This document shows positions 42,452-46,878 of a stretch of DNA of 60,432 nucleotides, piece after piece. How positions within the stretch are numbered: position 1 is the first letter of the stretch; every line of letters starts with the position of its first letter. The DNA is taken from NCBI GenBank assembly GCA_947629925.1, contig CANRFO010000015.1, positions 1-60,432 of the forward strand. Reading direction: 5' to 3'. The position numbers were made by a program, and so were the translations under genes. Below the pieces are notes generated by a model that was not told the DNA's origin, ran no database searches, and was given only the letters and a program-made list of their open reading frames with translations. Source of the stretch: an uncultured Ruminiclostridium sp. (lineage in GTDB: Bacteria; Bacillota; Clostridia; Oscillospirales; Ruminococcaceae).

Positions 42452-42493
42452 GATTTTACCTCCTATTTTAGTATTGCTGTCACTAAAAAGGGG

Positions 42494-42604
42494 AACAAAA
42501 AGTCCTTTTCCAAAGGAAAAGGACGCAATTATCAATTACTTCCCATTCCTCGGCAGGCGGCGTAGACCGTTAGCGCATATGCGACCTGCTGTCTTTAGAA
42601 CAGC
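42494..42604 (-). promoter_or_regulatory. L10 leader (ribosomal stalk autoregulation)
   Basis: On the minus strand the transcript begins with an extended hairpin including GACAGCAGGTCGC and CCTGCCGAGG, the hallmark of the L10(L12)4-binding leader (Rfam family L10_leader). It ends in the attenuator terminator at 42502-42524. Excess L10 stabilises the leader and favours termination. Confidence 0.88.
42502..42524 (-). terminator. Attenuator terminator in L10 leader
   Basis: A perfect 10-bp stem GTCCTTTTCC/GGAAAAGGAC with a 3-base loop followed by TTTTTGTT on the minus strand, 50 bp upstream of the rplJ start. Confidence 0.9.
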
Positions 42605-42610
42605 AAAAAT

Positions 42611-42639
42611 ATTATAGCATAAAAAAACATGTTTGTCAA
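42611..42639 (-). promoter_or_regulatory. Sigma-A promoter of rplJ-rplL
   Basis: Consensus TTGACA (42639-42634), 17-bp spacer and consensus TATAAT (42616-42611). The -35 lies within the terminator hairpin of the upstream rplA transcript. Confidence 0.93.
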
Positions 42640-45105: not shown

Positions 45106-46074
45106 TTATTTATAAAATTTGCTTTTTGAAAGTATAATTCCTGCAAGCAATGCAAGAATAGCTGAAATTATCAGAGGGACATATATACTATCAGCATAAG
45201 GAAGTCCGTTTACATTCATTCCGTAAAAACTGAAAACAATAGTCGGGATCTCCATAACGATAGTTATAATAGTAAGGACTTTCATTACCATATTAAGGTT
45301 ATTTGAAATAATGCTTGAAAAAACATCCATCGTATTTGACAGAATATTTGAATATATGTTAGTCATTTCAATCGCCTGCTTGACCTCTATAAGTACGTCT
45401 TCAAGCAAGTCCTGATCCTCATCATACAGTTTTATTACACGACCGCGAAGTATTTTTTCCAGAACTGTTTCAGTGGATTTCAAAGAAGTTGAAAAATATA
45501 CAAGAGATTTTTCAAGATCCAAAAGCTGGATGATCTCTTTATTTTTCATTGACTTGTGGCTTTGGCTTTCGACATAATTACTTATTTTATCTATCTGTTT
45601 CAGATATTGCAGGTATTTTCCTGCGATTCTGAGAAGCATGCAGAAAATAAACTGCGTCTTGAACTGAGTTTTTATGTTTTTTACAACATTATTTGCAAAC
45701 TCGTCGATTATAGAATTAGGTTTAAGGCTTACAGTCACTACGTTACAATTTGTAAGTATTATACTCATAGGAACAGTATAATAAGAAATAGTATCGTCAT
45801 CAGACCTTGATTTTCTTCTCTTTGAAGTCTGAGGCTCAGGCTTTTCGGCAACAGGATAGTCTAAAACTATCAAAGTCTGCCCTTCCTCGTTTTCAATACG
45901 AGATGTTTCCTCTTCGTCCAAGGCGGATCGTATAAAATCTCTGTCGATACTGAGTTCAGATTCAAGCATTGATATTTCCGCTTCAGTAGGCGCGACGGCA
46001 GAAACCCAACATCCTGCTTCCAGCGTTTCTATCTCAATGATAGCATTGCCTTCGGTTTTGTAAAACTTCAGCAT
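45106..46074 (-). CDS. corA: CorA family divalent metal (Mg2+) transporter
   Basis: 322 residues. A long cytoplasmic funnel domain is followed by two C-terminal helices with the YGMN selectivity motif (about residue 281) before the LPYADS-like loop. CorA channels admit Mg2+ and some Co2+/Ni2+. An insert KRRKSRSDDDT (about 83-95) is basic/acidic and unusual. The SD is inside a hairpin 2 bases upstream of the ATG; see the leader features. Preceded on the same strand by queH, but with its own promoter. Confidence 0.93.
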   Translation of the reverse strand: MLKFYKTEGNAIIEIETLEAGCWVSAVAPTEAEISMLESELSIDRDFIRSALDEEETSRIENEEGQTLIVLDYPVAEKPEPQTSKRRKSRSDDDTISYYTVPMSIILTNCNVVTVSLKPNSIIDEFANNVVKNIKTQFKTQFIFCMLLRIAGKYLQYLKQIDKISNYVESQSHKSMKNKEIIQLLDLEKSLVYFSTSLKSTETVLEKILRGRVIKLYDEDQDLLEDVLIEVKQAIEMTNIYSNILSNTMDVFSSIISNNLNMVMKVLTIITIVMEIPTIVFSFYGMNVNGLPYADSIYVPLIISAILALLAGIILSKSKFYK

Positions 46075-46076
46075 GT

Positions 46077-46121
46077 GTTCCCCTTCCTCAGGGGAACAAC
46101 AACAGAAATGCCTTTCCCCTG
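46077..46121 (-). promoter_or_regulatory. Mutually exclusive hairpins controlling the corA SD
   Basis: On the minus strand: segment A CAGGGGAA (46121-46114), segment B GTTCCCCTG (46097-46089), segment C GGGGAAC (46083-46077). A pairs with B over 8 bp; B pairs with C over 7 bp. B:C buries AGGAAGGGG, the corA SD; A:B frees it. Both helices are seen directly, and the switch function is inferred. It does not resemble the M-box or ydaO riboswitch as I know them. Confidence 0.6.
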
Positions 46122-46124
46122 CGA

Positions 46125-46169
46125 TTATTTTATTTTAATGCAACTATGCCCGCACGGGTCAGCTTTCAT
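46125..46169 (-). CDS. 14-residue leader peptide upstream of corA
   Basis: ATG 46169 reads MKADPCGHSCIKIK and stops with TAA at 46127-46125. SD AAGGAAGG (46186-46179) is 9 bases upstream. The stop is four bases before segment A of the corA switch, so a ribosome at the end of this ORF would cover A and let B:C form. The Asp-Pro pair and two Cys around a His are suggestive of a sensor peptide; I know of no described family. Confidence 0.55.
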   Translation of the reverse strand: MKADPCGHSCIKIK

Positions 46170-46213
46170 TTCAGTATACCTTCCTTATAAAAATATTACT
46201 TTACTAAATTATA

Positions 46214-46242
46214 ATTATAACATAATCTTGTCCGACTTTCAA
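46214..46242 (-). promoter_or_regulatory. Sigma-A promoter of corA
   Basis: TTGAAA (46242-46237), 17-bp spacer, TATAAT (46219-46214) on the minus strand. The predicted leader is about 133 bases, long enough for the peptide and the switch. Confidence 0.85.
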
Positions 46243-46257
46243 TAGAAAAAGAAAAAT

Positions 46258-46878
46258 TTAACCTGTAAATTTCATTTTTTCGGAAATCATTTTGCTGTAT
46301 ATACACCCGCAATAATTCTGACGATAAAGATTATATTCACGCGAAAGCTCTATTGAACGTTTGTATCCGTTTTTCTTCTTAAAATCGGAATAAAGATACT
46401 TTATGTTATATTCTTTTTCTAGCTCTTCACCGATCTCATTAAGTTTTTCGGCGTTTTTATGCGGGCTTATCGATAACGTTGTAGTAAAATAATCAAATCC
46501 TTTTTCAGCAGCAATTTTTGCCGCTTCCTCCATTCTGAGTCTGTAACATCTGAAGCAACGTTCTCCGCCTTCAGGAACATTCTCTAATCCTTTAGCAATA
46601 TTATCAAATTTTTCAGGTTCATATGTTCCGCCAAGAAAGTTTATTTCGTGACTCAAAGGCATTTCGGAAATAAGTCTTCTTAACTCGGAAATTCTTTTCT
46701 CATATTCACTCAAAGGTGATATATTAGGATTATAATAAAAAACAGTAATATCAAAAAAATTATCAAGATATTCAAGTACATAGCTGCTGCAAGGAGCGCA
46801 GCAAGCATGAAGCAGAAGCGTTTTTCTTTCGCTTAATCCTTCTATAATCTCATCAAGTTTTCTTTGATAGTTGATCAT
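46258..46878 (-). CDS. queH: Epoxyqueuosine reductase QueH
   Basis: 206 residues. Cys motifs HACCAPC (24-30), ERCFRCYRLR (about 106) and QNYCGC (about 192) ligate the 4Fe-4S cluster and a further metal of QueH, the non-cobalamin enzyme for the last step of tRNA queuosine synthesis. It lies 16 bp downstream of tex. Confidence 0.93.
   Translation of the reverse strand: MINYQRKLDEIIEGLSERKTLLLHACCAPCSSYVLEYLDNFFDITVFYYNPNISPLSEYEKRISELRRLISEMPLSHEINFLGGTYEPEKFDNIAKGLENVPEGGERCFRCYRLRMEEAAKIAAEKGFDYFTTTLSISPHKNAEKLNEIGEELEKEYNIKYLYSDFKKKNGYKRSIELSREYNLYRQNYCGCIYSKMISEKMKFTG

Follow-up and report, generated by a model that had tools for sequence, protein, structure and literature searches.

We found that the corA gene of an uncultured Ruminiclostridium sp. 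is preceded by a short leader ORF whose codons 4-5 encode Asp-Pro, and by RNA segments predicted to form two mutually exclusive folds, one of which hides the corA Shine-Dalgarno (SD) sequence. Based on the sequence, its folding and comparison with related loci, this leader probably acts as a translational attenuator operated by ribosomes, sensing low Mg2+ via the leader peptide, and it appears to be a Clostridia counterpart of the MgtL, CorL and MgtQ Mg2+ attenuators. The window (the whole stretch of 60,432 nucleotides that was analyzed) contains the following features of this system:

46214..46242, minus strand: candidate promoter of the leader/corA transcript, TTGAAA-17-TATAAT (consensus scan, 11/12, with TG before the second hexamer)
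46179..46186, minus strand: SD of the leader ORF, AAGGAAGG (read from the sequence, SD match scored)
46125..46169, minus strand: leader ORF, MKADPCGHSCIKIK, stop TAA; member of a conserved corA leader peptide family
46155..46160, minus strand: codons 4-5, GAC CCG, Asp-Pro, the conserved motif, locked in 105/157 dereplicated corA upstream regions
46150..46158, minus strand: segment 0, pairing with 46124-46116 around the start of A (minimum-energy fold; masking the ORF start makes SD opening cheaper)
46114..46121, minus strand: segment A, CAGGGGAA, an SD-like anti-B (sequence, pairing, comparison with relatives)
46089..46097, minus strand: segment B, GTTCCCCTG, anti-SD (sequence, RNAfold, comparison with relatives)
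46077..46083, minus strand: segment C, GGGGAAC, with the corA SD AGGAAGGGG at 46088-46080 (sequence, RNAfold)
45106..46074, minus strand: corA, 322 aa, CorA-like Mg2+ transporter (PF01544, E 4.9e-52)

The gene is present in a single copy in the source genome. Its product scored 90.5 bits against TIGR00383, under the cut-off of 200.75, and contains a YGMN motif. A terminator scan of the corA leader found none. With regard to the surroundings, corA adjoins queH (epoxyqueuosine reductase, PF02677) at 46258-46878, a neighbourhood that was observed, among the loci compared, in near relatives only (L002, L003, L122, L124, L125 and L135). A ribosomal protein L10 leader (RF00557) lies at 42487-42616, downstream of the L1 and L11 genes, and a second strong promoter-like site, TTGACA-17-TATACT, was located on the minus strand at 45079-45051, after corA and before SecE and NusG-like genes.

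The first-pass annotation of this DNA had proposed a three-segment RNA switch over the corA SD, and both of its pairings proved exact on the minus strand: CAGGGGAA (46121-46114) pairs with TTCCCCTG (46096-46089) over 8 bp to form A:B, and GTTCCCC (46097-46091) pairs with GGGGAAC (46083-46077) over 7 bp to form B:C. Its statement that A begins four bases past the leader stop agrees with the three intervening bases that we counted after the TAA at 46127-46125. RNAfold lengthened B:C to 9 bp (46098-46090 with 46084-46076), covering the corA SD, and the 133-nt leader fold reached -39.6 kcal/mol (z -4.27), which was equalled in 0 of 200 shuffles. Also in line with the annotation, Rfam at gathering scores over the leader returned no M-box, NiCo or other family; the M-box covariance model (RF00380) did not match the corA leader here, though it matched other Clostridia loci. 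A lax Rfam search of 46050-46260 gave one chance-level match (SNORA35, E 0.13). Thus, the proposed translational attenuation of a metal-transporter gene by ribosome position gains support from the conserved leader ORF, the conserved A:B/B:C competition and the lack of any Rfam riboswitch match or terminator hit. The three-segment competition was retained in our analysis; what the annotation had overlooked was the probable sensor, namely the Asp-Pro encoded by codons 4-5, together with a fourth segment competing for A.

Conservation of the leader peptide was analyzed in a corA upstream sample with two parts: a family part covering 105 of 108 places in 197 genomes (3 fragments were left out) and a named part comprising the best 80 of at least 443 confirmed places, which included Oscillospiraceae and Ruminiclostridium MAGs, Acetanaerobacterium, Anaeromassilibacillus, Caproiciproducens and others. 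A start codon followed by Asp-Pro at precisely the fourth and fifth codons was present in 125 of 175 unique regions, and after dereplication an SD-led start of this kind was found in 105 of 157, the named part being in both cases the best 80 of at least 443. Thirty shuffles of the upstream regions gave Asp-Pro at codons 4-5 with a mean of 0.23 and a maximum of 2, and Asp-Pro elsewhere among positions 2 to 12 had 0-3 occurrences each in the 157 regions (named part, best 80 of at least 443). Leaders usually begin with MNPDPGS, MSPDPYG, MKPDPLS, MGTDPYG or MDGDPGS, and the corA leader contains the only SD-led Asp-Pro-4-5 start in the 60-kb window. A short SD-led ORF with an acidic/Pro motif near the peptide start precedes this Mg2+ transporter gene, and the motif is likely to be the Mg2+-sensitive point, as judged from its conservation and from analogy. 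Asp-Pro at codons 4-5 was absent from 50 of the 175 unique regions (named part, best 80 of at least 443); some of these encode variant peptides, such as MSPYPDGN, some have corA behind another gene, and in some nothing was seen. Variant acidic beginnings occur in L081, L090, L096 and L105 (MADDVGRSR, MADDVGRKR, MAPEPCPKP and MEGEPRSRS), and these are natural test cases for which residues matter.

The Asp4 codon was GAC in 75 of 82 loci, where the same corA genes would lead one to expect 41.7 (sd 4.2), so the nucleotides seem to be constrained as well. The preference for GAC at Asp4 (window 46160-46158) was also observed in loci whose leader overlaps corA and which lack segment A; it could be due to RNA pairing or to the speed of decoding. 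Downstream of Asp-Pro, Cys made up 7.1% in frame 0 versus 1.4-1.6% in the other frames. An initial leader pattern was discarded: it matched in 14 genomes, two matches being this leader and that of L002 and the other twelve lying in or across other reading frames. A pattern with rigid SD spacing was too strict to be informative on distribution.

The competition between A:B and B:C was then examined in 73 compact dereplicated leaders whose ORF starts 80-135 nt before corA, taken from 94 dereplicated leaders (107 in all). Since leader lengths differ too much for alignment-based pair counting, arm permutation was used instead. On average, 6.7 bases of B were common to both stems versus 2.9 in shuffles, where the highest of 30 set means was 3.4, and at least 5 shared bases were present in 56 of the 73 leaders, while no shuffle set exceeded 26 of 73. 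Each of the two fold states was also about 6 kcal/mol stabler than in shuffles. A leader's own arm outranked 95% of the foreign arms in 16 of 73 leaders for C (median rank 0.19) and in 18 of 70 for B (median rank 0.16), with about 4 expected for each; thus, single leaders are mostly not significant individually and the set is. A triple change could be seen between near relatives, with GGGGAA/TTCCCC/GGGGAA in the window versus GGAGAA/TTCTCC/GGAGAA in L120. By both arm permutation and shuffles, the competition recurs in relatives far beyond chance.

Simulated ribosome positions pointed to a role for the leader start. The predicted cost of opening the corA SD in the window was 16.3 kcal/mol for the ribosome-free leader, fell to 9.2 when an early ribosome covered codons 1-9 and rose to 19.3 when one stood at the stop. 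Over the 73 leaders, an early ribosome made opening cheaper in 53 and dearer in 9, with a mean gain of 2.26 kcal/mol, compared with -0.12 (range -0.64 to 0.61) when the middle region was shuffled (15 sets). The gain was still 1.84 with segment 0 swapped in from other leaders, and therefore segment 0 acts largely in a generic way, which is not surprising where the codons are conserved; a direct foreign-arm test of the 0:A pairing was weak (8 of 73 leaders). A terminating ribosome would reach the SD in 29 of the 73 compact leaders, which have a long ORF, and among the other 44 the SD was predicted to be closed more strongly by a late than by an early ribosome in 27 and more weakly in 11, including the close relative L120. 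In addition, 15 named loci around Anaeromassilibacillus and Caproiciproducens (from the best 80 of at least 443) form an overlap type, whose leader starts 58-62 nt before corA, contains the corA SD and ends 23-109 nt inside corA. On polarity, which the annotation had not fixed, the evidence leans towards early exit or pause as ON and completion as OFF. All layout types would fit one rule, namely that finishing ribosomes keep corA shut and an early stop at Asp-Pro opens it.

We infer the Mg2+ signal, the event at Asp-Pro (drop-off or a pause) and the polarity as follows. In ample Mg2+, the ribosome would get past Asp-Pro and finish the leader, its footprint masking A (or the SD itself in the long-ORF relatives); with A masked, B:C would pair and corA would be shut. 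In low Mg2+, the ribosome would be destabilised at the xxDP sequence and pause or exit early, over segment 0 but not over A, so that A would be uncovered, A:B would pair and the corA SD would become free. In a leader with no ribosome, segment 0 would hold A and B:C would hide the SD; the untranslated leader is therefore predicted to be OFF, and loss of the leader start codon would shut corA. In the overlap clade, a ribosome completing the leader would just translate across the site where corA initiates. After a clean drop-off, segment 0 could retake A, and a pause or kinetic trapping of A:B would therefore be needed. The sequestration of the SD suggests that the output is translational. Mg2+ was chosen as the signal because of the likeness to MgtL, because two unrelated Mg2+ transporter families lie behind such leaders and because M-boxes occur on some of the same genes. 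Several facts speak against the model: Asp-Pro at codons 4-5 is missing from part of the corA upstream regions (among them 45 of the 64 class loci described below), 11 of the 44 leaders are predicted to open more with the late ribosome, the segment-0 effect is mostly generic, and many leaders have a single acidic residue, whereas MgtL has two.

Analysis of the wider distribution covered 25 of 47 corA places in other families of the order, 64 of 85 corA places in the class (both samples repeating some genes of the named set) and 69 of 99 mgtE places (L270 and L271 being one gene). Asp/Glu-Pro was found at codons 4-5 in 22 of the 25 order loci, three being Glu-Pro. Asp-Pro at these codons was present in 19 of the 64 class loci, 17 of them within 260 nt, and absent from the 45 others examined; these class-level leaders span 8 families outside the order and often begin with MDADP, MDTDP or MDCDP. 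An M-box replaced the leader on corA in two of 20 class loci scanned, L343 (family f78) and L336 (f85), and family f78 holds both kinds, since L337 has the leader. In L365, L369 and L372 of family f81, a further short ORF is found repeatedly ahead of corA, reading MDGFRSGGSRK in one locus and MAVDQGQVENIDI or MAVDQGEVENIDI in two; this could be a separate leader or a wrong-frame start.

A search with the Asp-Pro pattern gave 11 matches, four beside corA and one (L231) before mgtE; the remaining six had no Mg2+ transporter within the 900 nt read. The mgtE match led to MSPDPDSKPK, which precedes mgtE in L231/L241, in another order. Under a looser rule for mgtE (acid-Pro anywhere in the first seven codons), such leaders preceded 8 of 69 distinct regions (7 among the 30 nearest and 1 among the remaining 39), four having the motif at codons 4-5: MSPDPDS, MDGDPLSC, MDSDPLP, MDYDPLP, MDYPDPLP, MDPESLP, MVDPGPLP and MDPIPSRS. 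M-boxes were present in 15 of the 69 mgtE regions, two of which also had an acid-Pro leader. In these two, L258 and L260, the leader ORF (MVDPGPLP, MDSDPLP) lies between the M-box riboswitch and mgtE, and the pair may represent two Mg2+ sensors in series.

Translational coupling would reverse the polarity: leader translation would melt B:C and allow re-initiation at corA, so that completion is ON and drop-off is OFF. The 29 of 73 compact leaders whose stop lets a terminating ribosome reach the SD do have the typical layout of coupled genes. However, 53 nt separate the leader stop from corA in the window, and opening of the SD is costliest (19.3 kcal/mol) with a ribosome at that stop; the 15 overlap-type loci (from the best 80 of at least 443) end their leader 23-109 nt inside corA, which is far for backward re-initiation, and coupling would deprive low-Mg2+ cells of their importer. 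We consider this explanation unlikely. The leader might instead read charged tRNA(Pro) or tRNA(Asp) rather than Mg2+, as the conserved Pro and Asp codons and the GAC excess (75 of 82 versus 41.7 expected) would allow, and proline sensing was proposed for MgtL (PMC10117744). Such amino-acid attenuation is quite improbable here: the leaders contain one or two Pro codons and one Asp codon but no codon runs, and the genes served are Mg2+ transporters, not biosynthetic genes.

Direct metal binding, either by the peptide through the Cys/His sequence CGHSC or by a new riboswitch whose folding the ribosome merely aids, appears very unlikely to us. CGHSC occurs in this leader and that of L002, but these are the only 2 of 125 leaders with it, and it was rejected as a metal-binding sensor. 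As for a riboswitch, an Rfam scan of 20 family corA regions (19 with Asp-Pro at codons 4-5 and L045 at 3-4) returned no family, nor did that of the window's leader, and the leader sequences are too variable for an aptamer. It is also conceivable that purine-rich segments such as A and C pair with any pyrimidine-rich stretch and that no switch exists, and foreign arms did pair well, 95% of them being beaten in only 16 of 73 and 18 of 70 leaders. Yet these counts are four to five times the expectation, the shared B bases exceeded all 30 shuffle sets and the leader ORF is conserved by itself, which makes pairing by chance a highly improbable account.

A ribosome-operated attenuator sensing low Mg2+ thus remains our preferred reading. 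We put at about an even chance the broader proposal that acid-Pro fixed at codons 4-5 forms a general Mg2+ sensor based on the ribosome, used in Proteobacteria (mgtA) and Clostridia (corA and mgtE), interchangeable with the M-box and coupled to three mRNA readouts (an anti-SD switch that follows a short leader, one that is translated through, and a plain overlap of leader and transporter start), with the Asp-Pro codons having a dual role, in the peptide and in an RNA segment competing for A. If true, the Asp-Pro leader would be a widespread means of Mg2+ sensing in common gut bacteria across many Clostridia families. Dozens of natural variants are available for locating the Mg2+-sensing part of xxDP and for studying the readout, and the overlap type, which has no RNA switch, isolates the role of the peptide. 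No account of a clostridial Asp-Pro corA leader was found in the open literature, mostly judged by listings and with subscription papers largely outside it.

Finally, we compared the leader with known Mg2+ leader systems. Destabilisation of ribosomes by acid-Pro leaders has been worked out for enterobacterial Mg2+ transporters (PMC11282234, PMC10117744). In E. coli MgtL the destabilising motif is EPDP at codons 2-5, with Glu2 and Asp4 (PMC11282234); Salmonella MgtL is MDPEPTPLPRWRIFLFR and starts with MDPEP (PMC10117744). In low Mg2+ the ribosome leaves at the motif and mgtA is expressed (PMC11282234; Chadani 2017 as cited there). Loss of bL31 raises MgtA in E. coli (PMC11552253), and bL31 is encoded in the source genome. 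The clostridial leaders resemble mgtL in having acid-Pro at the very start, with Pro3-acidic4-Pro5 shared at codons 3-5 by MxPDP/MxPEP (PMC11282234, PMC10117744), and in the proposed expression of a Mg2+ importer upon low-Mg2+ drop-off (PMC11282234). In contrast, mgtL has several Pro and acidic residues, acts by Rho-dependent transcription termination and serves mgtA (PMC11282234, PMC10117744).

The leader also resembles mgtQ upstream of Salmonella mgtB, where acidic residues of the uORF (Asp2 and Glu5) destabilise ribosomes, alternative stems (1:2 plus 3:4 versus 2:3) decide whether the SD of a Mg2+ transporter gene is accessible, the output is translational, and loss of the uORF start lowers expression, as our four-segment model predicts here (PMC8092293). 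It differs in that mgtQ is an 8-aa uORF inside an operon of a proteobacterium, has no Asp-Pro at codons 4-5 and precedes a P-type ATPase gene, mgtB (PMC8092293). The corL uORF of E. coli and Salmonella also precedes corA, with two exclusive folds, a Mg2+ response and translation inverse to corA expression; however, it is described as having a single Pro and fewer acidic residues, works through Rho-dependent termination, and loss of its start codon raises corA, opposite to our prediction (PMC11552253). The published corA RNA motif, located upstream of corA, comes from Gammaproteobacteria (PMC6429828). Judging by its named relatives, the genome examined here belongs to the Clostridia. The M-box (ykoK, RF00380) likewise governs Mg2+ transporter genes in Clostridia (the 15 of 69 mgtE regions, and corA in L336 and L343), but it is a ligand-binding RNA without a leader peptide and was not found here. 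The system proposed here belongs to another phylum than MgtL, CorL and MgtQ, would act through SD sequestration or overlap, keeps Asp-Pro in one fixed place (codons 4-5) and is found before corA and some mgtE genes.
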